Source: Aphrocallistes beatrix (taxonomy: Eukaryota > Porifera > Hexactinellida > Sceptrulophora > Aphrocallistidae). Taken from it: a stretch of DNA of 64,000 bases. The first letter of the stretch is position 1, and every line of letters starts with the position of its first letter. This document shows, one piece after another, positions 5,063-29,141 of this stretch. The stretch lies in assembly GCA_963281255.1 (NCBI GenBank), contig OY725490.1:2666001-2730000 (forward strand), read 5' to 3'. The notes below the pieces were generated by a model. That model did not search any database and was not told the DNA's origin. It was given only the letters and a program-made list of their open reading frames with translations. A program made the translations under genes and the position numbers.

Positions 5063-7213
5063 TTAGTTATTTACTTGCACATTATATTTTATAGATGCAG
5101 ACAGGCCGAGTGCTAGTCCAACCATTGAAACAGTGAAAATAAGGATTGGGATTAGTACAGTGAATGCTAGATTGAAGTTACAGGTGAATTGTATGGTACA
5201 AATGCTGTTTGAGTTTGTGATGTTCTCAGAGGTGGGAGCTAGTATGACGTCATACTTGTCAATTTGGTTCTTAGCTTCTTTGAGTGGTACAAGAGTTGAT
5301 TCATTCACTTCATAACCGAATTGCTGTACTGTGATTGGACCACTATAATAAGTTAAGGCTTCATAGGTTCCAAATTCAGAGAACTTAGTAGTATATGCTG
5401 AGTTATAGTTATAGGGACCATAATACTGGTTAAAAATGAACATTCCACTGTTCTGGATTGTACAGTTGACAGTTGTATTTGAGGTTAGGTAACAAACAGC
5501 TGTTGTGGAGAAATCTTCATTCAGAATTGCGCTTTTACACCAAAATAAGCCAAATTGGTTACTAAAGATATTACTTCCGACATAACAGGGATCCACCGTC
5601 TCTATTGCCATATATGTTAAGTATTTTATATTCGTAACTTCGTTTGAGGAATCCACTGTGGCTATTAATACAGAATCTTTAGGAATCCAAAACTGTCCTC
5701 TTGAATAAAAAGTGTGGTTATTGAGATTGTCTTGATGGACGTAAGTATGTGTCTTATTTTGTATGCGAAGTGGTTGGATGAGTTTAGCTGCATAAATTGT
5801 ACTGTTTTGACAGTCTTGAATTGGTGTATTAGGACTGTAAGGATTGTTGAATACACTGATAGAGAGGTGATCTTTATGACAAGAGTTTAATTTGCCCTCC
5901 AAATCAGTTTTATCCAAGATGTAGTAATCACCTGATTTCATTTGAATAATTTGTTTCCATTTCTCTGTCAGTAAAGGCGCGAAAAAGCAAGCAAAAAGCA
6001 AGCTGATCAGTAGAACAGTAACTACATACACTGATATTATAATTCTATTCTTTGGTTTGTAATGTGTAGTGTGTAATGCATCTTGATTGGTAGTGGTTCC
6101 CCTCATATAATTGTTATTGCGAATTAATTTTATTATCTTAGGATCGTTGCTGCTATATCCACTGTACTTGGCTTTAGTTTTGTAACGGAAATAGAGCCAG
6201 AGTACAATGAGAAATATGGAATATAGAATGACAGGTAAAGTTGCCACAATCTGGATAATAGTCAATGCGATAAGAACAAGAACATTGGTAATTGTTCCGA
6301 TAAAATTGACACTAATTAATTCAAGAGTAATGACTATAGATGCTAATAGATACTGACCGAATATGTTCACTGAAGTAAAGAATGATACAGAGATTGTTCC
6401 CCATCCTGCTATTTGAAACAACATACTCGCTCGAATTTTATCCACATAATGACTCCTATCTAGAAATTGAGTGTTGAGATCTGTGTTGAATTGATGTATG
6501 TATGTTTTCACAACACGTTGTGACACCCTAATGAACGAGAATACGAAAGGGAAACGTATAAATAACTCAAATACTTAAGTAGGTGGAATCCTGAGAAAAA
6601 AACAAGTGCATTGGGAATAATAAGCGTTCTTAATAAATCAAAAGTTGTGAACAGATCAGAAGTGTATTCATTTAGGATTAAATTGCTTATAACACCAACC
6701 TGAACTATTATAGAGTGCAAAAGTGCCAAAAAGCATACAATTTGAAACCGAAATGTTTTCTCTTTGAAATAGCAAGTAATTTGATAGAACAGCGTGATTG
6801 CAAATAAAATAATTCCATCCTGAGATACTGCATACAATCCTTCAGTTATGTAGATATACCATGGATGAAACATCTGAATTCACGAAATACACAAGGAAGT
6901 ATACAGTAGTTATTATGTTAAACACGTTGAAGCCTATCATGAAAAGTATGATGCACATTACCGCCCTGAAATGGTCATAGTATCCTCTCATTACCTTGGT
7001 ATCAACATCTCCCTCTGCTACACGCTTCAAGATATACCTGTACTTGAATACCTGCATGATGAGCTGAGCAGCTAGACGGATGTTGATGGGGAGCATCAGT
7101 AGAGAGATGAGAATGTTGATTGATGATGTCACACCGATTATACTCTGCGCGGTAGCACTAGTACCTGTTGGATAGGCAGCTGACACGATAAATGAAGTTA
7201 AACTAGAAATCAT
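5063..7213 (-). pseudogene. array member A: frameshifted copy of the orphan multi-pass membrane protein
   Basis: Full-length homologue of the intact copies at 8599-10725 and 17056-19182, but broken into three reading frames. Compared with the intact paralogues, a 5-nt deletion near 6875 (just before the FHPWYIYI segment) shifts the frame, an indel near 6560-6575 (before RFPFVFSF) shifts it again, and a 2-nt loss near 5098 alters the last residues, replacing the usual CIYKI end with a longer tail. The start region and its upstream flank are nearly identical to those of copy C. The ectodomain part (5063-~6000) is otherwise open and retains the cysteines and N-glycosylation sites. A 5-nt gap cannot be an intron, so this is a decayed copy unless the assembly is wrong. 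It may still serve as a gene-conversion donor. Confidence 0.85.
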
Positions 7214-7252
7214 TTTCTGTATCGTTTATGATACATTAATTGTTTGAAACAG

Positions 7253-7261
7253 CTATTTATT
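7253..7261 (-). promoter_or_regulatory. TATA-like box of array member A
   Basis: AATAAATAG on the minus strand 40 bp before the ATG, at the same place as in copy C. Confidence 0.5.
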
Positions 7262-7682
7262 ATCTCTTTTAGTGCCCAGCTTGACTATCTTGATATATCA
7301 TGTGCTCATGTCAAGGATATCTTGTAATATGTTATGCATTATTAATAAATTCTCTTCTAGCTAGTGTAGAGTCAATACTATACACGTGATGTTAGTACAG
7401 TTTAGAACTCATTTCATTCACCGAGTACACATTATTCAATAGCTGCATTAGTTTTTATATTGGTTGATCTCCCCTTAAATAGACGACACCAAATTCAGTT
7501 CTACGTGTATATGTAATCAGTATTTACATTGTTGCTGAAGAGCAATAATTTAGTAGCTCGTATCAACATCTAACTGAGGAGAAGACTTCTCAGTCAACAT
7601 AATCTTAGTACTATTTAATAGTACAGGGCTATACGTAGAATACTTATGGAGCTACTGAATTGATGTCCTCGTTATAATATAA

Positions 7683-7746
7683 ACAAGTGCGCTTCGCTTG
7701 CTTGCGCTGTGCGGCTGGCGGACACTTTGTGTCCGCCAGATGCGCC
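7683..7746 (+). repeat. structured GC-rich dispersed repeat, copy 2
   Basis: ACAAGTGCGCTTCGCTTG followed by a clear stem-loop with GGCGGACAC and GTGTCCGCC arms around a 3-4-nt loop. The 3' third present in other copies is missing. Its twin is copy 3 in the duplicated unit. Confidence 0.8.
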
Positions 7747-7990
7747 ATTAATTAAAAGGTAGATAGCATCTCTAAATACGTCTGTCCTACTGTTATAATC
7801 GATATCGCACGAAAAATCACCAAATTTGTCAATTTTTAAAATTTTGATGGTAATGATGACGTCATAACAAAGTGATGAGTCATCATTTGTGATAGTTACA
7901 TCATATGTGAGATATATTAAGACGTATACACATTCTATTAAAATTTCAGCCTTCTATCACCTAAATGGCTGAGTTATGTGGAAAAACTGA

Positions 7991-8030
7991 AAAATATATA
8001 TATATATATATACTAGTATATATGTATATA
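7991..8030. repeat. AT dinucleotide microsatellite
   Basis: Runs of TA/AT. The duplicated counterpart near 16441-16485 has a different length, as expected for a slipping microsatellite. Confidence 0.85.
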
Positions 8031-8598
8031 ATAGTAAGGATATAATTTCTCATATCGTATTAATTCTGCTAGCTTAAGGAAAAATATGCCACTATCGCTA
8101 TGCGGTATGATTCGTGTATCTGAGACGAAACTTTGCCAAATATGTCCGATTCAATCTCTATACAGGAGAGTCCCCAACACTCAATCCAAAAGAACCCAAA
8201 AATAGCTCAGAAAGAACGTTTGCAACTTCTAATCCAAAGCTATTCGACTTACTAACTTTCTGTACAACGCACTGAGAACATAATAATAGACATCATTCAA
8301 TCGATTCGTAATTTACAAATCCCCTTGATATATACGGTTGCTGGAAAATATATAAGATAAAAGCTATTATTTACTAAATATCAAAAACAATCAATACAAT
8401 CTAAACCGAATACATGAAATCTACAAGTACTTCTACACAAATCTTACTATAAGTAACAGTTTCTGGCTAATAAAAATACCAAATTCAGTTAGATCACATT
8501 GATTCATTTGGGGTTTTATCTATATTATACAAAAACAATATTTACATGAGGGTAGAAAACATTCACTCCCAGCTAAGTTTTATTTATTTACTTGCACA

Positions 8599-10725
8599 TT
8601 ATATTTTATAGATGCAGAGTAGGCCGAGTGCTAGTCCAACCATTGAAACAGTGAAAATAAGGACTGGGATTAGGACAGTGAATGCTAGATTGAAGTTACA
8701 GGTGAATTGTATGGTACAGATGCTGTTTAAGTTTGTGATGTTCTCAGAGGTGGGAGCTAGTATGACGTCATACTCGTCAATTTGGTTCTTAGCTTCTTTG
8801 AGTGGTACAAGAGTTGATTCATTCACTTCATAACCGAATTGCTGTACTGTGATTGGACCATTACGATAAGTTAAGGCTTCATAGGTTCCATCAAAGAACT
8901 TAGAAGTATATGCTGAAGGCAGACCAGTTTCATAGGGAAAAGAAATAAAAGTGAACATTCCACTGTTCTGGATTGTACAGTTGACAGTTGTATTTGAGGT
9001 TAGGTAACAAACAGCTGTTGTGGAGAAATCTTCATTCAAAACTGCGCTTTTACACCAAAATAAGCCAAATTGGTTCCTAAAGACACTTAAAAATCCGACG
9101 TAGCAGGGATCAACCGTCTCTATTGCCATATATGGTAAATATGTTATATTCATAACTTCGTACGGGGAATGCAATGAAGCTATTAATACAGAATCTTTAG
9201 GAATCCAAAACTGAGAAAAAGAGGTGTCGCTATTAGGATTGTCTTGATGGACATAAGTATATGTTTTGTTTTGTATGCGAATAGGTTGAATGAATTTAGT
9301 TGCATAAATTGTACTGTTTTGACAGTCTTGAATTGGTGTATTAGGACTGTAAGGATTGTTGAATACACTGATAGAGAGGTGATCTTTATGACAAGAGTTT
9401 AATTTGCCCTCCAAATCAGTTTTATCTAATATGTAGTAATCACCAGATTTCATTTGTATAATGTGCTTCCATTTCTCTGTCAGTAAAGGCGCGAAAAAGC
9501 AAGCAAAAAGCAAGCTGATCAGTAGAACAGTAACTACATACACTGATATTATAATTGTATTCTTTGGTTTATAATGTGTAGTGTGTAATGAATCTTGATT
9601 GGTAGTGGTTTCTCTCGTATCATCGTTATTATGAATTATTTCTAGTATCTTAGGATCGTTGCTGCTATATCCACTGTACTTGGCTTTAGTTTTGTAACGG
9701 AAATAGAGCCAGAGTGCAATGAGAAATATGGAATATAGAATGACAGGTAAGGTGGTTACAATCTGTACAATGGTCAATGCGATAAGAATAATTACATCAA
9801 TAATTGTACTGAAAGAATTGGCTGCCAAAAATTCATAAGTAATGAGCATAGATGCTATTACATACTGACCGAATATATTCACTGAAGTAAAGAAGGATAC
9901 AGAGATTGTCCCCCATCCTGCGATTTGGAACAACATACTCGCTTGAATTTTATCCACATAATGACTCCTATCTAGAAATTGAGTGTTGAGATCTGTATTG
10001 AATTGATGTATGTATGTTTTTACAACACGTTGTGACACCCTGATGAACGAGAATACAAAAGGAAAACGTACAAATGGCTCCAATAGGTAGAGTCCTGAGA
10101 GAGTATAAAGTCCAAAGAGAATAATACGCGTTGTTAAATCAAAAGTTATGAACAGATCAGGAGTGTATTTATTTAGGATTAAATTGTTTATAACACCAAC
10201 CTGAACTAGTATATAGATAGAGCGCAAAAGTGCCAAAAAGCATACAATTTGAAACCGAAATGCTTTCTCTTCGAAATAGCAAGTAACTTGATAGAACAGT
10301 GTGATTGCAAATAAAATAATTCCATCCTGAAACGCCGCATACAATCCCTGAGCTATGTAGATATACCATGGATGAAACCCCCAATCTGATTTCACGAAAT
10401 ACACAAGAAAATACACACTAGAGATTACGTTAAACACGTTGTAACCTATCATGAAAAGTATGATGCACATAACAACCTTGAAATGGTCATAGTATCCTCT
10501 CATTACCTTGGTATCAACATCTCCCTCTGCTACACGCTTCAAGATATACCTGTACTTGAATACCTGCATGATGAGCTGAGCAGCTAGACGGATGTTGATG
10601 GGGAGCATCAGTAGAGAGATGAGAATGTTGATTGATAGCATCACACCGATGATACTCTGCGCGGTAGCATCACTACCTGTTGGATAGGCAGCTGACACGA
10701 TGAATAAAGATAAACTAGAAATCAT
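8599..10725 (-). CDS. array member B: orphan multi-pass membrane protein with cysteine-rich ectodomain
   Basis: I do not recognise this family. The product is 708 residues in one exon. The N-terminal part has hydrophobic segments near 23-43, 84-110, 118-147, 157-179, 199-217, ~264-300 and 306-344; then a polar Thr/Asn-rich linker (~347-388), a TM at ~391-413, a ~260-residue domain (414-676) and a final TM (~678-704) with a very short tail. The 414-676 domain has eight cysteines (445, 468, 541, 558, 573, 583, 670, 676) and at least six N-x-S/T sites (e.g. 470, 486, 526, 578, 635, 662), so it is probably extracellular. The start ATG is shared by all copies and has a TATA-like box ~50 bp upstream; AATAAA on the minus strand at 8579-8584 lies just past the stop. 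The copy at 17056-19182 differs at only about a dozen residues. Receptor, channel and transporter roles all remain possible. Confidence 0.85.
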   Translation of the reverse strand: MISSLSLFIVSAAYPTGSDATAQSIIGVMLSINILISLLMLPINIRLAAQLIMQVFKYRYILKRVAEGDVDTKVMRGYYDHFKVVMCIILFMIGYNVFNVISSVYFLVYFVKSDWGFHPWYIYIAQGLYAAFQDGIILFAITLFYQVTCYFEEKAFRFQIVCFLALLRSIYILVQVGVINNLILNKYTPDLFITFDLTTRIILFGLYTLSGLYLLEPFVRFPFVFSFIRVSQRVVKTYIHQFNTDLNTQFLDRSHYVDKIQASMLFQIAGWGTISVSFFTSVNIFGQYVIASMLITYEFLAANSFSTIIDVIILIALTIVQIVTTLPVILYSIFLIALWLYFRYKTKAKYSGYSSNDPKILEIIHNNDDTRETTTNQDSLHTTHYKPKNTIIISVYVVTVLLISLLFACFFAPLLTEKWKHIIQMKSGDYYILDKTDLEGKLNSCHKDHLSISVFNNPYSPNTPIQDCQNSTIYATKFIQPIRIQNKTYTYVHQDNPNSDTSFSQFWIPKDSVLIASLHSPYEVMNITYLPYMAIETVDPCYVGFLSVFRNQFGLFWCKSAVLNEDFSTTAVCYLTSNTTVNCTIQNSGMFTFISFPYETGLPSAYTSKFFDGTYEALTYRNGPITVQQFGYEVNESTLVPLKEAKNQIDEYDVILAPTSENITNLNSICTIQFTCNFNLAFTVLIPVLIFTVSMVGLALGLLCIYKI

Positions 10726-10775
10726 TTTCTTTATCGTTTATAATACAATCGTATCAATTAATTGTTTATAACTAG

Positions 10776-10784
10776 CTATTTATT
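10776..10784 (-). promoter_or_regulatory. TATA-like box of array member B
   Basis: AATAAATAG on the minus strand 51 bp before the ATG, in the conserved context GAATAAATAGCTAG. If it acts as a TATA box, the 5' UTR would be only ~15-25 nt. Confidence 0.5.
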
Positions 10785-13606
10785 CTCTCTTTTAGTGCCT
10801 AGGTCTATCTTGATGTATCATGTATGCTCATATCAAGGATATTATTGTAATACATATATTATGCATACTATTATGACTTGAATCTCGTGTATATATAGAA
10901 TTAGCTTGTGTACTCTGTGGCAACTCTATTCTAGTTCATTGTACACACGAGTCAATACTGTACACGTGATATCAAGATATGCGAGGTAATTTTAGATATA
11001 GTCCATCCTCTATAATATATGCGGGGATACTTATCAACTGTGGACTATGTTCCTCTAGGTAGACATGCGCTACCAGCAATAATACTCAGGATATTTGGCG
11101 AATATTCCCCAAAACAGGACATTTTACGGAATCTTATGGTCATTCCATTTCTCACTCCTGAGCTCATCCATCTAACTTGCATTTCTGCAAACTCTAAATA
11201 AAAATAATGATGAGAAACTCAAACTGCACTAATTCATTTAATATTAAAGAAACAATGACTTACTGGGATTCTTCCTGAGTAATTGTCCAGAGTTGAAGTT
11301 GCATGTGCCATCCTAGAATATAGGATCTCCTAAAAGTGTTAGTGACATCAATACAGACACTGATACCGAAATAACTACGTAGATTACAACTAGGCAGGGA
11401 AGTCACTAGTCCAAGAAAGGATAAGGATGTGGCAAATGAACTTTGAGCGATAATTATGTAAGGAAATGCTGACAACTGGAGTGTACACACCTTTGCATTT
11501 TCTTGTACTTATAAATTATACAGTCGGTAATGTTAAATAAGATGCAGATAATCCCTCGGAGATTTCTGATGGAGATGGATCAGATTCTGGTAATGAGATT
11601 GCAAAAAATTCAAACCAAATTTATAGGGATTTTTGAGACTTCTCAGTCACCAGAATCTTAATACTATTCAATAGTACAGGGCTATAGAATACTTACTATA
11701 GAGCTACTAAAATTGATGTCCTCGTTATATTGTAAATATAATTTCGCATATACTACGTAGAATTAATTCTGCTAGCTTTGGGAAAAAGATGGCATTATCG
11801 GTATGGAGGTATGATTCGTGTATTTGAGAGGAAACTTGGCCAAACATGTCCGGTTCAATCTCTAGCAGGAGAGTACCCAACACTTAACCAAAAGATCCCA
11901 AAAATAGCTCAGAAAGAACGTTTGTAACTTCGAATCCAAAGCTATTCGACTTGAAACCTCCGGACTTAAGCACAAAGAAAATCCATGGACAATCATAAAG
12001 GACATCATTCGATCATAATTTACAAATCCACTAAATCTACCAACTTTATCATAGAGAGATTCCTTAACAAACTAATACCGAGCTTGCAAGGTCGCGTTAT
12101 AAAATCCAACTAACTAATGCCACTTTTTAGTGCCACCTAAGAAAAATAGCCCTAAATCTATCAATTTACGCTATTTTATGTCAATTAAAGCTAACAAATC
12201 CGCTAATAGATAAGTTTTATTCGTAATTTAATTTTAGAAAGCATTTTCCTGTTAAAATAAATACCAAAAAGATACCCAAGTTTGCCTCGACATTCCCCAA
12301 GCAGTTGCCACCCAGACTGTTTATTATACGTAGTATCTCGATTTCGGCTTCGATTTTGCAAAAGTATCTAACTATTTTTTGAGATATAATTAAAAAGATA
12401 CAAAGTGGCACAATTGTATCGCGAAGTGTTGAATAGAAAATCGTATAATGACTTCGTCTGCCCATAAACATGCTACATCTTATGTGCAAATTTCAAAATA
12501 AAGAAAGAAATATAATCATAAGAAGAATACGTTTGCCGGGTATACCTTTTATGCTGAAATACCTCAAAAAATAAGCAAAGGGGAGACCATTTTTGACAAA
12601 TACCGTTCCAGATGTAATGTTTGCAAAAATGGCTCCCCCAGACCAATTTGTGGAGGCCACCTTTTGTCAAAACAACAATTTTTTTTGCCTCGATTATCGA
12701 AAGGATTTTAGTTGCAAAATGATAGCATCTCTGTATTAGTCAATTCATTTGATTAATGATGAGTTGTTGTGTCGTATGGTTTAATGTTGAATCTTGATGA
12801 TTCATCATTCCCGAATTCAGCGATTCAGTATATTAAAATATGCTCAAATTATGCCCTAATAATGCTGAAGTATGTGCAGATTATGCTCCAAAATATCCTC
12901 AAAACTTGATCAATATATGCACTATTGATGAGCATGCTCAACTATTGATACAATTCATTTCAAAACTGGTAGCTATATCATTTCCCGTCTTGAAAAATTA
13001 CGATACCAAATTCAGTTTGTAATCAGTATTTACGTTGGTGCTGAAGAGCAGTCATTTAGTAGCTCGTACCAACATCCATCTAAGGAGAAGACTTAGTGAG
13101 TAGCCGGAATGTGTCCTACAATCTTAAATCCGGAATATGTCCTACATATTTTCCCAAACAAATGTTTTGAACAAACTAATACCGAACCTGCTAGGTCGCG
13201 TTATAAAATGCATCTAACTAATGTGCATACTCGTGTACGTACTGAAGATATACTAGTACTCGTATGTTGATTATAATCTGATCTTAGAGGTACAAAGCGG
13301 TCCTTAATTTCTTAAAACGCTGTTATATACGGTTGCGCAAGTTCTACAATGAAGTAAAAGCTGTTATTTACTAAATATCAAAAAATAAATTCAATCTAAT
13401 CCAAATATGTACATAAAATATACGATGTATACACAATCACTATAATTAACAATTTTTCAAGCTAGTAATAGACAAAAATATCATATTCAGTTAGATGATA
13501 CTTTAACATTGATTCACTTTGCCTTTTATCCGTATTATACAAAACAAAAAATATTTACATGAAGATAGAGAACACTCACTCCCTGATAAATCTATTTACT
13601 TGCACA
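10785..13606. other. array spacer B-C
   Basis: No gene is supported; the short open frames are not preserved usefully in the duplicate. The spacer is collinear with 19242-23331, which carries three extra insertions. The insertion-free target sites are TGCGCTAC at 11066-11073 and TA at 12385-12386. The 3' part (~13300-13606) is the flank shared by all copies. Confidence 0.7.
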
Positions 13607-15661
13607 TTATATTTTATAGATGCAGTACAGGCCGAGTGCTAGTCCAACCATTGAAACAGTGAATATAAGGACTGGGATTAGTACAGTGAATGCTAGACTG
13701 AAGTTGCAGGTGAATTGTATGGTACAGATGCTGTTTGAGTTTGTGATGTTCTCAGAGGTGGGAGCTAGTATGACGTCATACTTGTCAATTTGGTTCTTAG
13801 CTTCTTTGAGTGGTACAAGAGTTGATTCATTCACTTCATAACCGAATTGCTGGACTGTGATTGGACCATTATAATAAGTTAAGGCTTTATAGGTTCCATC
13901 AAAGAACTTAGTAGTATATGCTGAGAACAGAGCACCATAGGGAAAAGGGTTAAAAGTGAACATTCCACTTTTCTGGATTGTACAGGTGACAGTTGTATCT
14001 GAGGTTAGGTAACAAACAGCTGTTGTGGAGAAATCTTCATTCAGAATTGCGCTTTTACACCAAAATAAGCCAAATTGGTTACTAAAGGTATTACTCAAAT
14101 ATCCGACATAACAAGGATCAACCGTCTCTATTGACATATATGGTAAGTATTTTACACTATTCGTAACTTCGTTTGAGGAATCCACTGAAGCTATTAATAC
14201 AGAATCTTTAGGAATCCAAAACTGAACTTCTGAAAAGATGTCGATATAAGGATTGCCTTGATAGACATAAGTATATGTCTTGTTTTGTATGCGAAGAGGT
14301 TGAATGAATTTAGCTGCATAAATTGTAATGTTTTGACAGTCTTGAATTGGTGCATTAGGACTGTAAGGATTGTTGAATACACTGATAGAGAGGTGATCTT
14401 TATGACAAGAGTTTAATTTGTCCCCCAAATCAGTTTGATTCATTATGTAGTAATCACCAGATTTCACTTGAAATATTTGTTTCCATTTTTCTGTCAGTAA
14501 AGGTGCGAAAAAGCAAGTAAAAAGCAAGCTGATCAGTAGAACAGTAACTACATACTTATAGTTATTATGAATTAATTTTATTATCTTAGGATCGTTGCTG
14601 CTATATCCACTGTACTTGGCTTTAGTTTTGTAACGGAAATAGAGCCAGAGTGCAATGAGAAATATGGAGTATAGAATGACAGGTAAAGTTGTTGCAATCT
14701 GGATAATAGTCAATGTGATAAAAACAAGAACATTTGTAATTGTTCCGATAAAATTGACTCTAAAAAATGTAAGAGTGATGAATATAGATGCTAATAAATA
14801 CTGACCAAATATGTTCACCGAAGTAAAGAATGATACAAAAATTGTTCCCCATCCTGCTATTTGGAACAACATACTCGCTTGAATTTTATCCACATAATGA
14901 CCCCTGTCTAGAAATTGAGTGTTGAGATCTGTGTTGAATTGATTGATGTATGTTTTCACAACACGTTGTGACACCCTGATGAACGAGAATACAAAAGGAA
15001 AACGTACAAATGACTCCAATGAGTAGAATCCTGAGATAGCATAAAGTCCAAAGAGAATAATAACCTCTGTTAAACCAAAAGTTTCGAACAGATCAGGAGT
15101 GTATTCATTTAGGATTAAATTGTTTATAACACCAAGTTGAACTAGTATATAGATTGAGCGAAAAAGTGCGAATATGCACACAATTTTAAACCGAAATGTT
15201 TTCTCTTCGAAATAGCAAGTTATTTGATAGAGCATCGTGATTGCAAATAAAATAATTCCATCCTGAAATATCGCATACAATGCTTCAGCTATGTAGATAT
15301 ACCATGGATGAAACCCCCAATCTGATTTCACGAAATACACAAGAAAATACACACTAGAGATTACGTTAAACACGTTGAAACCTATCATGAAAAGTATGAT
15401 GCACATTACCACCCTGAAATGGTCATAGTATCCTCTCATTACCTTGGTATCAACATCTCCCTCTGCTACACGCTTCAAGATATACCTGTACTTGAATACC
15501 TGCATGATGAGCTGAGCAGCTAGACGGATGTTGATGGGGAGCATCAGTAGAGAGATGAGAATGTTGATTGATGATGTCACACCGATTATACTCTGCGCGG
15601 TAGCACTAGTACCTGTTGGATAGGCAGCTGACACGATAAATGAAGTTAAACTAGAAATCAT
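13607..15661 (-). CDS. array member C: orphan multi-pass membrane protein, short-linker form
   Basis: Intact 684-residue copy of the array family in one exon. It has the same layout: N-terminal multi-TM region, TM before the ectodomain, cysteine-rich N-glycosylated ectodomain, last TM, and CIYKI end. It differs from copies B and D by an in-frame loss of ~28 residues in the cytosolic-type linker: IHNN is followed almost at once by YKYVVTVLL, so the Thr/Asn-rich segment is gone. The first ~110 residues and the promoter match pseudogene A (TSFIVSAAYPTGTSATAQ), whereas the GWGTIFVSFF segment matches copy E, so the gene is mosaic. The ectodomain has its own variants near the GNPYIDIFSEV and NPFPYGALF patches. 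Function unknown. Confidence 0.85.
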   Translation of the reverse strand: MISSLTSFIVSAAYPTGTSATAQSIIGVTSSINILISLLMLPINIRLAAQLIMQVFKYRYILKRVAEGDVDTKVMRGYYDHFRVVMCIILFMIGFNVFNVISSVYFLVYFVKSDWGFHPWYIYIAEALYAIFQDGIILFAITMLYQITCYFEEKTFRFKIVCIFALFRSIYILVQLGVINNLILNEYTPDLFETFGLTEVIILFGLYAISGFYSLESFVRFPFVFSFIRVSQRVVKTYINQFNTDLNTQFLDRGHYVDKIQASMLFQIAGWGTIFVSFFTSVNIFGQYLLASIFITLTFFRVNFIGTITNVLVFITLTIIQIATTLPVILYSIFLIALWLYFRYKTKAKYSGYSSNDPKIIKLIHNNYKYVVTVLLISLLFTCFFAPLLTEKWKQIFQVKSGDYYIMNQTDLGDKLNSCHKDHLSISVFNNPYSPNAPIQDCQNITIYAAKFIQPLRIQNKTYTYVYQGNPYIDIFSEVQFWIPKDSVLIASVDSSNEVTNSVKYLPYMSIETVDPCYVGYLSNTFSNQFGLFWCKSAILNEDFSTTAVCYLTSDTTVTCTIQKSGMFTFNPFPYGALFSAYTTKFFDGTYKALTYYNGPITVQQFGYEVNESTLVPLKEAKNQIDKYDVILAPTSENITNSNSICTIQFTCNFSLAFTVLIPVLIFTVSMVGLALGLYCIYKI

Positions 15662-15700
15662 TTTCTGTATCGTTTATGATACATTAATTGTTTGAAACAG

Positions 15701-15709
15701 CTATTTATT
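15701..15709 (-). promoter_or_regulatory. TATA-like box of array member C
   Basis: AATAAATAG on the minus strand 40 bp before the ATG, with flanks identical to copy A. Confidence 0.5.
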
Positions 15710-17055: not shown

Positions 17056-19182
17056 TTATATTTTATAGATGCAGTACAGGCCGAGTGCTAGTCCAACCAT
17101 TGAAACAGTGAAAATAAGGACTGGGATTAGGACAGTGAATGCTAGATTGAAGTTACAGGTGAATTGTATGGTACAGATGCTGTTTAAGTTTGTGATGTTC
17201 TCAGAGGTGGGAGCTAGTATGACGTCATACTTGTCAATTTGGTTCTTAGCTTCTTTGAGTGGTACAAGAGTTGATTCATTCACTTCATAACCGAATTGCT
17301 GTACTGTGATTGGACCATTACGATAAGTTAAGGCTTCATAGGTTCCATCAAAGAACTTAGAAGTATATGCTGAAGGCAGACCAGTTTCATAGGGAAAAGA
17401 AATAAAAGTGAACATTCCACTGTTCTGGATTGTACAGTTGACAGTTGTATTTGAGGTTAGGTAACAAACAGCTGTTGTGGAGAAATCTTCATTCAAAACT
17501 GCGCTTTTACACCAAAATAAGCCAAATTGGTTCCTAAAGACACTTAAAAATCCGACGTAGCAGGGATCAACCGTCTCTATTGCCATATATGGTAAATATG
17601 TTATATTCATAACTTCGTACAGGGAATGCAATGAAGCTATTAATACAGAATCTTTAGGAATCCAAAACTGAGAAAAAGAGGTGTCGCTATTAGGGTTGTC
17701 TTGATAGACATAAGTATATGTTTTGTTTTGTATGCGAAGAGGTTGAATGAATTTGGTTGCATAAATTGTACTGTTTTGACAGTCTTGAATTGGTGTATTA
17801 GGACTGTAAGGATTGTTGAATACACTGATAGAGAGGTGATCTTTATGACAAGAGTTTAAGTTGTCCCCCAAATCAGTTTTATCTAATATGTAGTAATCAC
17901 CAGATTTCATTTGTATAATGTGCTTCCATTTCTCTGTCAGTAAAGGCGCGAAAAAGCAAGCAAAAAGCAAGCTGATCAGTAGAACAGTAACTACATACAC
18001 TGATATTATAATTGTATTCTTTGGTTTATAATATGTAGTGTGTAATGAATCTTGATTGGTAGTGGTTTCTCTCGTATCATCGTTATTATGAATTATTTCT
18101 AGTATCTTAGGATCGTTACTACTATATCCACTGTACTTGGCTTTAGTTTTGTAACGGAAATAGAGCCAGAGTGCAATGAGAAATATGGAATATAGAATGA
18201 CAGGTAAGGTGGTTACAATCTGTACAATGGTCAATGCGATAAGAATAATTACATCAATAATTGTACTGAAAGAATTGGCTGCCAAAAATTCATAAGTAAT
18301 GAGCATAGATGCTAATACATACTGACCGAATATATTCACTGAAGTAAAGAAGGATACAGAGATTGTCCCCCATCCTGCGATTTGGAACAACATACTCGCT
18401 TGAATTTTATCCACATAATGACTCCTATCTAGAAATTGAGTGTTGAGATTTGTATTGAATTGATGTATGTATGTTTTCACAACACGTTGTGACACCCTGA
18501 TGAACGAGAATACAAAAGGAAAACGTACAAATGGCTCCAATAGGTAGAGTCCTGAGAGAGTATAAAGTCCAAAGAGAATAATACGCGTTGTTAAATCAAA
18601 AGTTCCGAACAGATCAGGAGTGTATTTATTTAGGATTAAATTGTTTATAACACCAACCTGAACTAGTATATAGATAGAGCGCAAAAGTGCCAAAAAGCAT
18701 ACAATTTGAAACCGAAATGCTTTCTCTTCGAAATAGCAAGTAACTTGATAGAACAGTGTGATTGCAAATAAAATAATTCCATCCTGAAACGCCGCATACA
18801 ATCCCTGAGCTATGTAGATATACCATGGATGAAACCCCCAATCTGATTTCACGAAATACACAAGAAAATACACACTAGAGATTACGTTAAACACGTTGTA
18901 ACCTATCATGAAAAGTATGATGCACATAACCACCTTGAAATGGTCATAGTATCCTCTCATTACCTTGGTATCAACATCTCCCTCTGCTACACGCTTCAAG
19001 ATATACCTGTACTTGAATACCTGCATGATGAGCTGAGCAGCTAGACGGATGTTGATGGGGAGCATCAGTAGAGAGATGAGAATGTTGATTGATAGCATCA
19101 CACCGATGATACTCTGCGCGGTAGCATCACTACCTGTTGGATAAGCAGCTGACACGATGAATAAAGATAAACTAGAAATCAT
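17056..19182 (-). CDS. array member D: orphan multi-pass membrane protein, near-twin of B
   Basis: Intact 708-residue copy with the same topology, cysteines and glycosylation sites as copy B. I count about a dozen substitutions, among them I194G, D245N, I290L, H384Y, the EGK to GDN change near 440, I482L, P521L, E651K and L703Y. Some D-specific states (GD.LN near 440, YQ.NP near 492, LYCIYKI end) match copy C, pointing to short conversion tracts on top of the recent duplication. Single exon, with a TATA-like box 51 bp upstream. Function unknown. Confidence 0.85.
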   Translation of the reverse strand: MISSLSLFIVSAAYPTGSDATAQSIIGVMLSINILISLLMLPINIRLAAQLIMQVFKYRYILKRVAEGDVDTKVMRGYYDHFKVVMCIILFMIGYNVFNVISSVYFLVYFVKSDWGFHPWYIYIAQGLYAAFQDGIILFAITLFYQVTCYFEEKAFRFQIVCFLALLRSIYILVQVGVINNLILNKYTPDLFGTFDLTTRIILFGLYTLSGLYLLEPFVRFPFVFSFIRVSQRVVKTYIHQFNTNLNTQFLDRSHYVDKIQASMLFQIAGWGTISVSFFTSVNIFGQYVLASMLITYEFLAANSFSTIIDVIILIALTIVQIVTTLPVILYSIFLIALWLYFRYKTKAKYSGYSSNDPKILEIIHNNDDTRETTTNQDSLHTTYYKPKNTIIISVYVVTVLLISLLFACFFAPLLTEKWKHIIQMKSGDYYILDKTDLGDNLNSCHKDHLSISVFNNPYSPNTPIQDCQNSTIYATKFIQPLRIQNKTYTYVYQDNPNSDTSFSQFWIPKDSVLIASLHSLYEVMNITYLPYMAIETVDPCYVGFLSVFRNQFGLFWCKSAVLNEDFSTTAVCYLTSNTTVNCTIQNSGMFTFISFPYETGLPSAYTSKFFDGTYEALTYRNGPITVQQFGYEVNESTLVPLKEAKNQIDKYDVILAPTSENITNLNSICTIQFTCNFNLAFTVLIPVLIFTVSMVGLALGLYCIYKI

Positions 19183-19232
19183 TTTCTTTATCGTTTATAA
19201 TACAGTCGTATCAATTAATTGTTTATAACTAG

Positions 19233-19241
19233 CTATTTATT
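19233..19241 (-). promoter_or_regulatory. TATA-like box of array member D
   Basis: AATAAATAG on the minus strand 51 bp before the ATG; same context as copy B. Confidence 0.5.
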
Positions 19242-19521
19242 CTCTCTTTTAGTGCCTAGGTCTATCTTGATGTATCATGTATGCTCATATCAAGGATATT
19301 ATTGTAATACATATATTATGCATACTATTATGACTTGAATCTCGTGTATATATAGAATTAGCTTGTGTCTCTGTGGCAACTCTATTCTAGTTCATTGTAC
19401 ACACGAGTCAATACTGTACACGTGATATCAAGATATGCGAGGTAATTTTAGATATAGTCCATCCTCTATAATATATGCGGGGATACTTATCAACTGTGGA
19501 CTATGTTCCTCTAGGTAGACA

Positions 19522-19686
19522 TGCGCTACCATAGGCGCCGAACCCGGGGGGGCTGGGGGGGCTCAAGCCCCCCCTAGATTCGAAGATGGCCCATAGACGC
19601 TATACAAAATTTAGGGCTGAGCCCCCCCCCCTGGAACCCCAAAATTGTCCTTAGATTTCGAAAAGTTCGGCGCCCCTGTGCGCTAC
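19522..19686. mobile_element. 149-bp hAT-like element, filled site
   Basis: The element at 19530-19678 has terminal inverted repeats CATAGGCGCCGAAC / GTTCGGCGCCCCTG and internal G/C runs. It is flanked by TGCGCTAC (19522-19529 and 19679-19686). The duplicated locus at 11066-11073 has a single TGCGCTAC and no insert, which proves the boundaries and the 8-bp target duplication. Confidence 0.93.
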
Positions 19687-20983
19687 TAGCAATAATACTC
19701 AGGATATTTGGCGAATATTCCCCAAAACAGGACATTTTACGGAATCTTATGGTCATTCCATTTCTCACTCCTGAGCTCATCCATCTAACTTGCATTTCTG
19801 CAAACTCTAAATAAAAATAATGATGAGAAACTCAAACTGCACTAATTCATTTAATATTAAAGAAACAATGGCTTACTGGGATTCTTCCTGAGTTATTGTT
19901 CAGAGTTGAAGTTGCATGTGCCATCCTAGAATATGGGATCTCCTAAAAGTGTTAGTGACATCAATGCAGACACTGATACCGAAATAACTACGTAGATTAC
20001 AACTAGGCAGGGAAGTCACTAGTCCAAGAAAGGATAAGGATGTGGCAAATGAACTTTGAGCGATAATTATGTAAGGAAATGCTGACAACTGGAGTGTACA
20101 CACCTTTGCATTTTCTTGTACTTATAAATTATACAGTCGGTAATGTTAAATAAGATGCAGATATCCCTCGGAGATGGATCAGATTCTGGTGATGAGAGAA
20201 AAAAATTCAAACCAAATTTATAGGGATTTTTGAGACTTCTCAGTCACCAGAATCTTAATACTATTCAATAGTACAGGGCTATAGAATACTTACTATAGAG
20301 CTACTAAAATTGATGTCCTCGTTATATTGTAAATATAATTTCGCATATACTACGTAGAATTAATTCTGCTAGCTTTGGGAAAAAGATGGCATTATCGGTA
20401 TGGAGGTATGATTCGTGTATCTGAGACGAAACTTAGCCAAACATGTCCGATTCAATCTATGCAGGAGAGTACCCAACACTTAACCAAAAGATCCCAAAAA
20501 TAGCTCAGAAAGAACGTTTGTAACTTCTAACCCAAAGCTATTCGACTTGAAACCTCCGGACTTAAGCACAAAGAAAATCCATGGACAATCATAAAGGACA
20601 TCATTCGATCATAATTTACAAATCCACTAAATCTACCAACTTTATTATAGAGAGATTCCTTAAAACAAATACTTTGAACAAACTAATACCGAACTTGCAA
20701 GGTCGCGTTATAGAATCCAACTAACTAATGCCACTTTTTAGTGCCACCTAAGAAAAATAGCCCTAAAATATATCAATTTCTGCTATTTTTTGTCAATTAA
20801 AGCTAACAAATCCGCTCATAGACATGTTTTATTCGTAATTTAATTTTAGAAAGCATTTTTCTGTTAAAATAAATACCAAAAAGATACCCAAGTTTGCCTC
20901 AACATTCCCCAAGCAGTTGCCACCCAGACTGTTTATTCTAGTATCTCGATTTCGGCTTCGATTTTGCAAAAGTATTTTTGAGA

Positions 20984-21485
20984 TACAGTCGACTCTTGTT
21001 AATACGAACACGGATAAGGAGTACAATCGGATAAGAAGTACAAGTTTTGATTCCCCAACCTAATCTATGGCAAAATATATACAAACGAACTCCGGTTAAC
21101 ACGAACACGGATAAGACGAAATATCGGATAATAAGTACGATTTGTGGGTCCCCTTCAGTGCGTTTTCAATACTAAATACATCGGTTAATACGAACACGGA
21201 TAATACGAACAGGTGTGTGCTTACGAGCACTTTGAATATGGTACGTAGATAGATACTAGACAGATATTTCTCAATGAAAATACAATCGAATCTCGTTAAT
21301 ACAACATGGATAATGAGTTCTCTATTTGACAAGTACAATTTCATACTCTCACGTAGTTATCACTATGTATATTAAGGATTTGGGACAAATGTGGCTATGT
21401 ACGTACTTCGGTTAATACGTACTCCGGATAAGGAGTACAAATCTCCACGGTCCCTTGGCGTACGTGTTAACGAGAGTCGACTGTA
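20984..21485. mobile_element. 498-bp pogo/Tigger-like element, filled TA site
   Basis: The element at 20986-21483 has ends CAGTCGACTCTTGTTAA and TTAACGAGAGTCGACTG, flanked by TA (20984-20985, 21484-21485). The duplicate locus reads GAGATATAATTAAAAAG with one TA at 12385-12386 and no insert. Inner repeats of TTAATACGAACACGGATAA recur at several positions. No transposase remains. Confidence 0.92.
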
Positions 21486-22336
21486 TAATTAAAAAGATAC
21501 AAAGTGACACAATTGTATCGCGAAGTGTTGAATAGAAAATCGTATAATGACTTCGTCTGCCCATAAACATGCTACATCTTATGTGCAAATCAAACTAAAA
21601 AAAGAAATAATCATCACAAGAAGAATACGTTTGCCGGGTATACCTTGTATGCTGAAATACCTCAAAAATAAGAAAAGGGGAGATCATTTTTGACAAACCA
21701 GAATTAACGTTTGAATCGAAAAATGGTTCCCCCAGACCAATTTGTGGAGGCCACCTTTTGACAAAACAACAATTTTTTTTGCCTTGATTATCGAAAGGAT
21801 TTTAGTTGCAAAATGATAGCATCTCTGTATTAGTCAATTAATTTGATTAATGATGAGTTATTGCGTGGTATGGTTTAATGCTGAATCTTGATGATTCATC
21901 ATTTGCGAATTCAGCGATTCAGTATATTAAAATATGCTAAAATTATGCCCTAATAATGCTGAAGTATGTGCAGATTATGCTCCAAAATATCCTCAAAACT
22001 TGATCAATATATGCACTATTGATAAGCATGCTCAACTATTGATACAATTCATTTCACTGGTAGCTATATAATTTCTTGAAAAATCATCTCAAAAAAAAGT
22101 CTTGAAAAATTACGATACCAAATTCAGTTTGTAATCAGTATTTACGTTGGTGCTGAAGAGCAGTCATTTAGTAGCTCGTACCAACATCTATCTAAGGAGA
22201 AGACTTGGTGAGTAGCCGGAATGTGTCCTACAATCTCAAATCCGGAATATGTCCTACATATTTTCCCAAACAAATGTTTTGAACAAACTAATACCGAACC
22301 TGATAGGTCGCGTTATAAAATGCATCTAATGTGCAT

Positions 22337-23331: not shown

Positions 23332-25477
23332 TTATATTTTATAGATGCAGTACAGGCCGAGTGCTAGTCCAACCATTGAAACAGTGAACATAAGGACTGG
23401 GATTAGCACAGTGAATGCTAGATTGAAGTCACAGGTGAATTGTATGGTACAGATACTGTTTGAGTTTGTGATGTTCTCAGAGGTGGGAGCTAGTATGACG
23501 TCATACTTGTCAATTTGGTTCTTGGCTTCTTTGAGTGGTACAAGAGTTGATTCATTCACTTCATAACCGAATTGCTGTACTGTGATTGGACCATTATAAT
23601 AAGTTAAGGCTTCATAGGTTCCATCAAAGAACTTAGAGGTATATGCTGAGTTATAGTTATAGGAATAATAATAATAATAATACTGGTTATTAGAAAAAGG
23701 GTTAAAAGTGAACATTCCACTGTTCTGGATTGTACAGTTGACAGTTGTATCTGAAGTTAGGTAACAAACAGCTGTTGTGGAGAAATCTTCATTCAGAATT
23801 GCACTTTTACACCAAAATAAGCCAAATTGGTTACTAAAGATATTACTCAAATATCCGATGTAACACGGATTGACCGTCTCCATTACCATATAAGGTAAGT
23901 ATTTTATATTCGTAACTTCGTTTTGGGAATCCACTGAAGCTATTAATACAGAATTTTTAGGAATCCAAAAACCCTCCGAAAATTTGTCGCTATTAGGACT
24001 GCCTTGATGGACATAAGTATATGTTTTGTTTTGTATGCGAAGAGGTTGGATGAATTTAGCTGCATAAATGGTGTCGTTTTGACAGTCTTGAATTGGCGCA
24101 TTAGGACTGTAAGGATTGTTGAATACACTGATAGAGAGGTGATCTTTATGACAAGAGTTTAATTTGTCCTCCAAATCAGTTTTATTCATTATGTAGTAAT
24201 CACCAGATTTCATTTGAATGATTTGTTTCCATTTCTCTGTCAGTAAAGGCGCGAAAAAGCAAGCAAAAAGCAAGCTGATCAGTAGAACAGTAACTACATA
24301 CACTGATATTATAATTCTATTCTTTGGTCTATAATGTGTAGTGTGTAATGCATCTTGATTGGTAGTGGTTTCTCTCGTATCGTTGTTATGAATTAATTCT
24401 ATTATCTTAGGATCGTTGCTGCTATATCCACTGTACTTGGCTTTAGTTTTGTAACGGAAATAGAGCCAGAGTGCAATGAGAAATATGGAATACAGAATGA
24501 CAGGTAAGGTCTCAACAATCAGCACAATGGTCAATGCGATAAGAACAATAACATTTGTAATTGTACCAATAAAATTAATTCCAATAAAATCAAGAGTGAT
24601 GAGTATAGATGCTAATACATACTGACCAAATATATTCACTGAAGTAAAGAATGATACAAAAATTGTTCCCCATCCTGCGATTTGGAACAACATACTCGCT
24701 CGAATTTTATCCACATAATGACTCCTGTCTAGAAATTGAGTGTTGAGATCTGTGTTGAATTGGTTGATGTATGTTTTCACAACACGTTGTGACACCCTGA
24801 CAAACGAGAATACGAAAGGAAAACGAACAATTTCTGTCATTATGTATAATATCGAGATAAGAACTACAATGAGTGTAATATACGGTGCGTATTCAACAGT
24901 TTTGAACAGATAATCGAGATAATGATCTAGTGGTAAATTGTTTGACACCAACCCTAATTCCTACATAGATAAAACGTACTAGTGCGAAAAAGCATACTAT
25001 TGGAAATTGAAATTTTTTCTCTTGAAAGTAACAAGTTATTTGATAGAATATCGTGGCTGCGAATAAAATAATTCCATCCTCAAACGCCCGATACAATCCT
25101 TCAGCTATGTAGATATACCATGGATGAAATCCCCAATCTGATTTCACAAAATACACAAGGAAGTAGACAGTAGTTATTATGTTAAACACGTTGAAGCCTA
25201 TCATGAAAAGTATGATGCACATAATTACCCTGAAATGGTCATAGTATCCTCTCATTACCTTGGTATCAACATCTCCCTCTGCTACACGCTTCAAGATATA
25301 CCTGTACTTGAATACCTGCATGATGAGCTGAGCAGCTAGACGGATGTTGATGGGGAGCATCAGTAGAGAGATGAGAATGTTGATTGATGACGTCACACCG
25401 ATGATACTCTGCGCGGTAGCATCACTACCTGTTGGATAGGCAACAGACGCGATAAATAAAGCTAAACTAACTATCAT
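23332..25477 (-). pseudogene. array member E: single-frameshift copy
   Basis: Homologous over its whole length to the intact copies. The first ~175 codons (to ~24945) read in one frame and the remaining ~530 in another. Against copy F, the shift is explained by a 2-nt loss in the segment following GIRVGV near 24940-24950. The rest is well kept, including all ectodomain cysteines, and one ectodomain patch carries a Tyr/Asn run coded by an AAT/ATA-type microsatellite near 23660-23690. Its TM-region sequence resembles F (AFEDGIILFAAT, CYFQEKK). It could be a recent null allele, or intact in other individuals. Confidence 0.8.
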
Positions 25478-25518
25478 TTTCGATATCGTTTATGAAACAA
25501 CCATTCAATTGCTTAAGA

Positions 25519-25527: not shown

Positions 25528-25799
25528 TCTCTCATATAAAGATAGGCTAGGCCGAGCCTATCTTGATACTGTATATGTATATGATCATGTCAAGGATATC
25601 TTGTATCACCATTATACGTTTTTGCTGACTTGCAATCAGCTCTCATTATGTCTCAGAACAACCTAGGATTTAGAAACTAACTAGAGTATCCTAATTAGCT
25701 AAGTCTCTGTTACCTTATTTCCAGAACTTGCAAATCCTTTAACGTTCCTCTATGCACTCCTTTAAGATATTTTTTTTGAAAATTGTTTCCACAATAATC

Positions 25800-26035: not shown

Positions 26036-26138
26036 ATTCGTCAAATGGTGTGAAAATATGTATATAAAGGTGTAAAAATATTCACATAATCTTTTTTTAT
26101 TGCTATACATCATGATACATTTAAGATTGGAAGTGCAG

Positions 26139-26428
26139 TACACCCTCGCTAATCCGAACAGCTCTGTACCAACGAACCAAAAAAACGTTCGAATTAGTGA
26201 ATTTGCTCCGATTAGTGAAATAACACTAATTCAATGGGGTATTATTACAATTATAGTACTATGTATAATAAATTTGCATTGTTAGAATATTAAGGATATT
26301 ATTTAGTTATGATTGCTTTTTTAACTAGGATTCTCAAACCTATCGAAAGATATAACATTACTAACGATGATTCAAAGCATAGAGGCGAATAAGATTACAT
26401 TTTGACTGTTCGGATTAGCGAGGGTGTG
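26139..26428. mobile_element. pogo-like miniature element
   Basis: Ends CACCCTCGCTAATCCGAACAG and its exact inverse at the right; a TA precedes the left end, and the right TA is mutated to TG. A related copy lies at 32870-33138. Confidence 0.75.
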
Positions 26429-27313
26429 TGTCGGACAATGATTTCTATTGTGATAGTGCAGTCATATATATTGTATAGGAAAGGTGTGAAAAGTTGTTTT
26501 CCATTTTTTTTGCAGAAGTGTGTAAATTTCGCTTAGATTTTAGAACTTAATCGTAGTCATATCATTTCACACCTACATGCCAATTTTCACATATCTATGA
26601 CTTGCCAATTCCTCAATCAATTCGGACAAAAAACAAACAAAAATCCTAGTGTTTTAATATATAAGATTATCATTATTTGTTCGGAACTTTGCCAAACATG
26701 TCCGATTCAACCTCCATGCAGGAGAATCCCCAACACTTAACCCAAAATAGCTCAGAAAGGACGTTTGTAACTTCTAATCCAAAGCTATTCGACTTCCTAA
26801 CCTCCGGACTTAAGCACAAATAAAATGGACAATCATAAAGACAATCATAAAGGTAAATTAATACCTAACCTGCTAGGTCGCATTATAAAATGTATCCAAC
26901 TAATGTACATACTCGTATACGTATTGAAGTATAGTACTCGTATGTTGGAAACATTATTTAAAGTTGGCGTTGATTTATAGTTTGATCTTAGAGGTACAAA
27001 GGGGAATCTAATTTCTTAACACTTTGTTATATAAGGTTACTTAAATACATAATGAAATAAAAGCTATTACGAGTATTTACTAAAATATCAAAAAATCAAT
27101 CCAATCTAACCCAAATACATGAAATATACTTCCACAAAAGTCGGACTATAACTAACAGTTTCTAGCTAGTAAATAAAAATACCAAATTCAGTTAGATCAT
27201 ACTTTGACACATTGATTCACTATGCCTTCTATCTGTATTATACAAAAACAAACAATATTTACATGAAGACAGAAGACATTCACTCCTGATAAGTCTATTT
27301 GTTTACTTGCACA

Positions 27314-29141
27314 TTATATTTTATAGATGCAGAGTAGGCCGAGTGCTAGTCCAACCATTGAAACAGTGAATATAAGGACTGGGATTAGTACAGTGAATGC
27401 TAGATTGAAGTTACAGGTGAATTGTATGGTACAGATGCTGTTTGAGTTTGTGATGTTCTCAGAGGTGGGAGCTAGTATGACGTCATACTTGTCAATTTGG
27501 TTCTTAGCTTCTTTGAGTGGTACAAGAGTTGATTCATTTACTTCATAACCGAATTGCTGTACTGTGATTGGACCATTATAATAAGTTAAGGCTTCATAGG
27601 TTCTATCGGAGAACTTAGAGGTATATGCAGAGTTATAGGGACCATAATACTGGTTAAAAATGAACATTCCACTGTTCTGGATTGTACAGTTGACCGTTGT
27701 ATTTGAAGTTAGGTAACAAACAGCTGTTGTGGAGAAATCTTCATTCAGAATTGCGCTTTTACACCAAAATAAGCCAAATTGGTTACTAAAGATATTACTC
27801 AAATATCCGATGTAACAAGGATTGACCGTCTCCATTACCATATAAGGTAAGTATTTTATATTCGTAACTTCGTTTTGGGAATCCACTGAAGCTATTAATA
27901 CAGAATTTTTAGGAATCCAAAAACCCTCCGAAAAGGTGTCGCTATTAGGATTGCCTTGATAGACATAAGTATATGTTTTGTTTTGTATGCGAAGAGGTTG
28001 AATGAATTTAGCAGCATAAATTGTACTGTTTTGACAGTCTTGAATTGGTGTATTAGGATTGTCAGGACTGTTGAATACACTGATAGAGAGGTGATCTTTA
28101 TGACAAGAGTTTAATTTGTCCTCCAAATCAGTTCTATCCAATATGTAGTAATCACCAGATTTCATTTGTATAATTTGTTTCCATTTCTCTGTCAGTAAAG
28201 GCGCGAAAAAGCAAGCAAAAAGCAAGCTGATCAGTAGAACAGTAACTACATACACTGATATTATAATTCTATTCTTTGGTCTATAATGTGTAGTGTGTAA
28301 TGAATCTTGATTGGTAGTGGTTTCTCTCGTATCATCGTTATTATGAATTAATTCTATTATCTTAGGATCGTTGCTGCTATATCCACTGTACTTGGCTTTA
28401 GTTTTATAACGAAAATAGAGCCAAAGTGCAATGAGGTATATGGAATATAGAATGACAGGTAAAGTTGCCACAATCAGCACAAAAGTCAATGCGATAAGAA
28501 CGATTACATATATAACTATTCCATTAAAAGTAATACCATTTGTTTCTAAGAAAACGAGTGTGAAAGTGAAACAATATTGACTGAATATACTTATTAAATT
28601 AAATAGACAAACAGAGATTGTTCCCCATCCTGCGATTTGAAACAACATACTCGCTCGAATTTTATCCACATAATGACCCCTGTCTAGAAATTGAGTGTTG
28701 AGATCTGTGTTGAATTGATTGATGTATGTTTTCACAACACGTTGTGACACCCTGATGAACGAGAATACGAAAGGAAAACGGGCAGATGTTGCCATTAGTA
28801 ATAATACCAAGATACTAAGAACTCCAGTGAATGTAGTACTCGGTGTTGTACCAGTTTTGAGCAGCTCATAGATATATTTATCTAGGAGTAAATTGTTTAG
28901 GAGACCAACTCTAATTCCTAAATAGATAAAACGTACTAGTGCGAAAAAGCATACTATTCGAAATTGAAATTTTTTCTCTTGAAAGTAGCAAGTTATCTGA
29001 TAGAACAGCGTGGCTGCGAATAAAATAATTCCATCCTCAAACGCCTGATGCAATCCTTCAGCTATGTAGATATACCATGGATGAAATCCCCAATCTGAAT
29101 TCACGAAATACACAAGGAAGTAGACAGTAGTTATTATGTTA
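27314..29141 (-). pseudogene. array member F: 5'-truncated copy
   Basis: Matches the family from the NIITTVYFLVYFV segment to the LLCIYKI end (about 600 codons in one open frame), but homology stops abruptly near 29141. The first ~98 codons, the initiator ATG, the TATA-like box and the 5' flank are replaced by a GC-rich repeat (29142-29460). No ATG lies in the retained start of the frame; the open frame begins only at GTG/CTT codons. The ectodomain is fully open and mosaic: E-like in PKNSVLIASVDSQNEV and METVNPCYIGYLSN, A-like in IFNQYYGPYN. Either a truncated pseudogene or a gene whose first exon was replaced; the former is more likely. Confidence 0.75.

Follow-up and report, generated by a model that had tools for sequence, protein, structure and literature searches.

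The molecules that serve sensing and self/non-self discrimination in sponges are, to our knowledge, largely unknown. Among other invertebrates, the allorecognition loci of Hydractinia (Alr) and Botryllus (fuhc) are clustered and encode variable surface proteins, and the odorant and gustatory receptors of insects, together with their relatives, are seven-helix receptors that form large tandem families and have their N terminus inside the cell. A different architecture is found in P2X, ENaC/ASIC and CD36, in which a cysteine-rich glycosylated loop is held between two transmembrane (TM) helices and both ends of the protein lie inside. A published survey describes large families of receptors in a demosponge (PMC4302439). 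A glass sponge study (PMC10282587) reports mostly single-exon genes in this group and, in Aphrocallistes vastus, a tandem and mostly single-exon cluster of AIG1 genes; of the three tandem clusters on one A. vastus scaffold, that study could assign a predicted function to just one. Here, we analyze a stretch of 64,000 nucleotides of the Aphrocallistes beatrix genome (hereafter, the window; positions 2666001-2730000 of contig C3 in an assembly of 100.5 Mb and 28 contigs), which contains six minus-strand copies, three open and three broken, of one single-exon gene of about 700 amino acids (5063 to ~29230). The copies belong to a family of predicted nine-TM proteins in which a seven-helix (7TM) module and an ectodomain have been exchanged between paralogues, and we suggest, with a probability of roughly 55%, that it is a lineage-specific family of cell-surface receptors that diversifies by ectodomain exchange. 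Like the A. vastus AIG1 genes, it has expanded in a glass sponge into a large set of tandem, mostly single-exon copies; the proteins themselves are different.

The topology of the family was predicted from 22 open full-length members (alignment A1), with helices called at a fixed threshold on hydropathy averaged over the alignment and numbered on the protein of the second window copy (P0001). Eight stretches exceeded the threshold, whereas TM3 (residues 124-149) peaks right at it (1.4-1.6) and was placed by eye. The resulting nine helices comprise the 7TM module, TM8, an ectodomain and TM9, an arrangement that agrees with a sequence-only reading of the window, which had described six same-strand copies of about 700 residues, pseudogenes among them, with some eight N-terminal TM segments and a final one. 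In copy 2 (8599-10725, minus strand, open, 708 amino acids) the 7TM module is predicted at residues 26-342 (9700-10650), TM8 at 393-415 (9481-9549), the ectodomain at 416-677 (8695-9480) and TM9 at 678-703 (8617-8694). By the positive-inside rule the module would be N-out: over A1, inner loops 1-4 average 4.6, 2.7, 6.0 and 7.4 lysine and arginine residues, whereas outer loops 1-3 average 0.2, 0.7 and 0.5. These charges, together with the N-glycosylation sequons of the ectodomain (a mean of 8.3 in each of the 22 members, in line with the multiple sites noted earlier), predict that TM1-7 run from N-out to C-in, that TM8 leads outward to an external ectodomain and that TM9 returns inside. The ectodomain varies from 222 to 264 amino acids, and all six window copies retain the same eight of its cysteines (445, 468, 541, 558, 573, 583, 670 and 676). 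The earlier description of eight fixed cysteines thus stands for the window and is loosened in A1, where eight ectodomain columns hold a cysteine in 16-22 of the 22 members and are not all the same eight. The sole cysteine outside the ectodomain that is kept in at least 15 members is residue 87 in TM2 (21/22), and the alignment has 22 invariant columns in total.

This topology recalls several described systems without coinciding with any of them. The TM8-ectodomain-TM9 unit resembles the loop proteins P2X, ENaC/ASIC and CD36; here, however, it is joined to a seven-helix module, and it gave no Pfam match. The insect odorant and gustatory receptors are likewise seven-helix proteins of large tandem families, but they are N-in, whereas the charges and sequons of the present proteins imply an N-out orientation, and again no Pfam match was obtained. 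The Hydractinia and Botryllus loci share the clustering and the variable surface proteins and differ in the class of protein, the comparison on our side being with one genome. We know of no described family in which a 7TM module is followed by a TM-ectodomain-TM module.

The two modules have different histories, as judged from separate trees for the codons that precede TM8 and those from its start onward in 15 members (13 on contig C20 and one each on C17 and C15). The 7TM and ectodomain data each reject the tree of the other, with log-likelihood differences (delta lnL) of 501 (approximately unbiased, AU, test 8e-5) and 714 (AU 3e-4). In six controls made from random halves of the data delta lnL was 4.7-48, and one of the six was itself rejected (AU 2e-5). 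When each module was divided, the second half rejected the tree of the first (7TM module, delta lnL 22, AU 0.003; ectodomain module, 42, AU 0.0001), so smaller exchanges have probably occurred inside the modules as well. Among 19 cut points, for each of which trees were re-estimated with an equal number of added parameters, the best was residue 416 (gain 726.7), followed by 405 (724.6), with 393 at 716.3; on this scale the main junction in the C20-type relatives is in TM8 or at its outer edge. Individual pairs of loci display the exchange more directly. The loci L040 and L043 differ at synonymous sites (dS) by 0.04 in the 7TM module and by 0.58 in the ectodomain, while L040 and L039 have the opposite relation, with a dS of 0.12 in the ectodomain and above 0.35 in the helices and inner loops, as do L029 and L038 (0.12 versus 0.32-0.40). 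The exchange also crosses contigs: the closest 7TM module to that of L026, on C17, is at dS 0.88 and the closest ectodomain, that of L019 on C20, at 0.32, and by this measure L026 carries a C20-type ectodomain. We conclude from the trees and these pairs that the modules have recombined between paralogues, an observation that is new here.

The exchanged domain belongs to the more variable part of the protein. We compared 16 C20-type members, of which 13 lie on C20 and three singly on C17, C15 and C13. Their mean identity falls to 0.22 in outer loops 2 and 3, 0.40 in TM5 and 0.51 in the ectodomain; it is 0.78 for inner loops 1 and 3, and the helices apart from TM5 range over 0.56-0.81. Of the helices, TM1-TM3 count among the well conserved parts, together with inner loops 1 and 3. 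The same regions vary among the window copies. The sequence-only reading had listed three variable patches, which we place in outer loop 3 (residues ~289-310) and at ~486-545 and ~593-622 in the ectodomain; to these must be added a fourth that it had missed (~183-215), which takes in outer loop 2 and the outer tip of TM5. In copy 2 the latter segment (residues 183-215) lies at 10081-10179 and outer loop 3 (residues 289-310), which varies in both sequence and length, at 9796-9861, both on the minus strand. A codon analysis of 15 members, made with our own grid-based script after FUBAR and a fixed tree for each module, gave ratios of nonsynonymous to synonymous rate (beta/alpha) of ~0.2-0.5 in the inner loops and in the helices except TM5 (0.74), 0.60 in the ectodomain, and 0.96 and 0.91 in outer loops 2 and 3. 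These values indicate that the intact members are constrained and that variation on the outer side is close to neutral or under selection only locally; by their codons, the intact genes are under purifying selection. Between window copies, the pooled ratio of nonsynonymous to synonymous differences (pN/pS) in outer loop 2 plus outer TM5 is 2.03, for pairs that are not independent. In Fisher tests on the outer segments of these copies 2 of 11 comparisons fell below p = 0.05 (0.027 and 0.034), both in that same region, but neither survives correction, one of the pairs consists of two broken copies, and the alignment of the loops is uncertain.

The window itself records how such copies arise. Of its three open genes, copy 2 is 98% identical in protein to copy 4 (P0003, 17056-19182, minus strand, 708 amino acids) and 85% identical to copy 3 (P0002, 13607-15661, minus strand, 684 amino acids). 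Copies 2 and 4 lie in the two units of a segmental duplication, 6104-13217 and 14551-22329 (to which no strand applies), which pair as 6104-11075 with 14551-19531 (96.9% identity), 11066-12367 with 19679-20975 (95.1%) and 12385-13217 with 21484-22329 (92.2%). The first unit starts within copy 1 and the second within copy 3, so that one edge of the duplication falls inside these two genes. Copy 1 (5063-7213, minus strand) is broken into three overlapping open pieces (5063-6526, 6508-6873 and 6842-7213). Its upstream flank is 99.7% identical to that of copy 3, and the first ~79 codons of the two are 100% identical. The 3' end of copy 3, in contrast, is nearest to copy 5 (98% and 95% identity in the pair of 120-column blocks at the stop and immediately beyond it, and 82.8% when all of the downstream stretch is counted), whereas its middle is a patchwork that is 80-95% identical to copy 1. 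It lacks 26 codons of the linker between TM7 and TM8, a net shortening of 24 amino acids, and is still in frame. On these similarities copy 3 is a chimera, with its 5' end from copy 1 and its 3' end closest to copy 5. The simplest account would be that tandem copies crossed over unequally and that gene conversion came later; a single clean crossover in the TM7-TM8 linker was retained only in part, because the patchwork of the middle requires that later conversion be added. The two remaining copies, both broken and on the minus strand, are copy 5 (23332-25477), with two overlapping open pieces (23332-24951 and 24893-25477), and copy 6 (27314-29230), which is open and matches the family only from about codon 91, its N-terminal part being non-matching. 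Beside this dense cluster, the segment 30000-40000 holds just one open frame of at least 120 amino acids (35996-36583), which has no Pfam match.

The family extends far beyond the window. Protein searches of the genome gave 54 matches with P0001, 41 with a member on C2, 66 with one on C20 and 11 each with distant members on C16 and C11. After overlapping rows had been reduced to one and same-strand pieces less than 600 bases apart had been joined, they amount to at least 51 loci, spread over 14 contigs, and 45 of the loci exceed 1.4 kb; these counts of loci and copies are lower bounds. At least 25 are open full-length frames, namely the 22 of A1 together with L061, L062 and C20:1337040. One cluster has 22 loci at C20:2.607-2.699 Mb, and the family evidently grew by tandem duplication. 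A distant subfamily (L059-L063) of the same nine-TM architecture has a small tandem cluster of its own at C20:1320297-1339136 and also occurs at C11:3438713 and C16:553795. On C3, about 650 kb from the window, a second small cluster (C3:3344000-3348498; L007, L009, L013 and L020) includes one 637-amino-acid frame without the N-terminal part and one plus-strand copy broken near the TM7-TM8 linker.

The earlier statement that the protein belongs to no known family holds against Pfam-A, NCBIfam and the sequences of the PDB. In Pfam-A, neither the 22 A1 members nor seven further queries from five loci had any match above the cut-offs. PspB appeared in 4 of the 22 (best E 0.011) and Phage_glycop_gL in one; these, Connexin, Comm and similar Pfam matches were rejected, all being below the curated cut-offs, and the Connexin match of one distant member (E 0.0011, 19.2 bits against a cut-off of 31.3) was taken as noise. 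NCBIfam gave nothing above cut-off for four members. Among PDB sequences P0001 had no match at E<=10, and the A1 profile, compared with 177635 of them, had a single match at that threshold, to a restriction-enzyme subunit (E 0.2). Pattern searches returned 67 stretches in viral contigs and 44 in prokaryote genomes, with no confirmed relative in either. The statement that relatives are lacking covers these databases, contigs and genomes, the sole collection of animal sequences being the same genome. Among the papers listed from the open-licence literature of PubMed Central, none was recognised as describing this nine-TM family; it appears to be undescribed.

Conserved inner loops 1 and 3, a variable outer face and a swapped outer domain are what would be expected of receptors that share an inner partner and meet many ligands. 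In such a receptor, the N-out seven-helix module would be joined at its inner end to the second module, TM8-ectodomain-TM9, whose ectodomain, tethered at both ends beside the helix bundle, may either bind a ligand or present it to the bundle. Outer loops 2 and 3 could take part in the binding, the seven-helix module would relay the signal to an inner partner common to the copies, and new specificities would enter the repertoire through ectodomain exchange. Its likely uses, as far as the protein sequences suggest them, are the sensing of environmental or microbial molecules, then immune recognition and, last, allorecognition. The sequence-only reading had also taken the combination of constant scaffold, variable patches, tandem copies and pseudogenes as a sign of recognition. 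That pattern is borne out, in that variation peaks on the extracellular side and paralogues have exchanged ectodomains, and it fits recognition receptors in general, but the scaffold is not uniformly constant: inner loops 2 and 4 (identity 0.54 and 0.57) are hardly above the ectodomain. This weighs against a receptor family diversifying by ectodomain exchange, as do several other observations. The most conserved loop of all is an outer one (outer loop 1, identity 0.85). Neither Pfam nor the PDB sequences yielded a match to a family of receptors, G protein-coupled receptors (GPCRs) included, and AlphaFold gave no usable structure, with a predicted local distance difference test score (pLDDT) of 38.3 for P0001 alone and 33.3 for an alignment of the six window copies. 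The distances of the two modules are correlated over 120 pairs (Spearman 0.84; 0.93 in a control of odd versus even codons), which implies that the exchange is superimposed on shared descent. The nearest neighbour differs between modules in 14 of the 16 members, compared with 9 of 16 in the odd/even-codon control; since these counts are weak alone, the argument for exchange is based on the named pairs and the tree tests. The exchange of ectodomains could, moreover, be neutral gene conversion. Finally, the site-by-site test of selection proposed earlier did find the most variable outer loops, 2 and 3, near a ratio of 1, but positive selection is nearly absent, with a posterior above 0.9 at only 5 of 653 sites. 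The variation of the outer loops could for this reason reflect relaxed constraint. That positive selection is the chief driver was considered unproven and set aside, given these few sites and Fisher tests that are nominal only.

Relaxed constraint is also part of a different explanation, in which the proteins are transporters or channels peculiar to this lineage that bear a glycosylated outer domain, and the copies represent dosage or paralogue variation. Such a protein would have much the same topology, since nine TM helices suit a transporter as well as a receptor, and the absence of a GPCR match and a beta/alpha in outer loops 2 and 3 that is near 1, not above it, agree with it. We nevertheless consider it unlikely: known transporter and channel families gave no match above cut-off in Pfam, NCBIfam or the PDB, and only 2 of the 22 invariant columns of A1 are charged residues in predicted helices (R46 near the inner end of TM1 and R168 in TM4). 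Slightly better placed, although still doubtful, is a divergent member of the GPCR superfamily (the GRAFS classes, Dicty_CAR, lung 7TM) that Pfam has missed and that has gained a C-terminal TM-ectodomain-TM extension. The predicted N-out seven-helix module is the likeness that speaks for it; what separates the present proteins from that superfamily, besides the added module, is that no 7TM Pfam family matched any of the 22 members at E<=1, nor the seven further queries, that no GPCR appeared among the PDB sequences at E<=10, and that the class A motifs D/ERY and NPxxY and the cysteine pair linking TM3 to outer loop 2 were absent from A1 when inspected by eye. The tandem copies, pseudogenes, chimeras, outward variable patches and exchanged ectodomains would equally be found in an allorecognition locus, whose variable surface proteins decide on self/non-self fusion. 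None of these features is specific to allorecognition, however; families of chemosensory or immune receptors yield the same pattern, and known allorecognition systems centre on one or a few loci, whereas this family is spread over 14 contigs, so that this role seems to us distinctly improbable. The least credible explanation by far is that uncollapsed haplotypes or mis-joined reads produced both the tandem copies and the chimeras. The 98% identity of copies 2 and 4 within a segmental duplication of 92-97% identity would be compatible with such an artefact, but for 14 of the 16 C20-type members the nearest 7TM module is at a dS of at least 0.18 (the exception is the pair L040 and L043, at 0.04), which in our judgement exceeds the usual differences between alleles. 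The mosaics, in addition, span contigs C3, C20 and C17, and the window contains no N.

The neighbours of the cluster in the window are genes for a PP2A B56 subunit, a mitochondrial carrier, a SMARCAL1-like helicase (HARP and SNF2 domains), a MYG1 fragment and an axonemal dynein heavy chain; the B56 subunit, the carrier, the helicase and nearly all of the dynein are each within one open frame. The dynein, which is close to DNAH6, occupies an open frame of 4078 amino acids (50936-63172, plus strand). Three PDB chains with the name DNAH6 match it at 5284, 5269 and 5264 bits, and the best chain of any other name reaches 3858. In alignment with the DNAH6 chains, residue 80 of the frame falls at their residue ~185, and a tract resembling a splice acceptor lies 5' of the frame, which suggests that almost the whole gene is a single exon and that at least one upstream exon is likely. 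Elsewhere in the genome, there were eight matches to integrin beta and three to Frizzled, which mark the genome as that of an animal and led us to discard protists as its source. A search for Wnt, made without a positive control, gave no match anywhere; glass sponges, according to one report (PMC10280926), have no Wnt and have kept one Frizzled class. AIG1 had 91 matches, 31 of them in a tandem array at C12:534020-713489, many in open frames of ~530 amino acids. This array resembles the tandem AIG1 cluster described in A. vastus, with the caution that the AIG1 profile also matched 12 of 14 control prokaryotes (8 above cut-off) and is thus not specific.

The TM8 junction provides a clear case of modular evolution through recombination between gene copies. 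As the family has no Pfam model, it would be missed by surveys of sponge receptors that start from the Pfam GPCR clan, as the survey cited above does (PMC4302439). More tentatively, and with considerable doubt, the proteins may constitute an undescribed class of sponge receptors, in which seven-helix signalling modules and tethered TM-ectodomain-TM recognition modules would behave as cassettes that paralogues exchange both inside one cluster and across contigs. The germline would thereby encode a combinatorial repertoire that serves immune recognition, the recognition of microbes or self/non-self discrimination. Outer surfaces that vary, inner loops 1 and 3 that are conserved and ectodomains that have moved between paralogues together make this family a concrete candidate for a part in sensing or in self/non-self discrimination in sponges.

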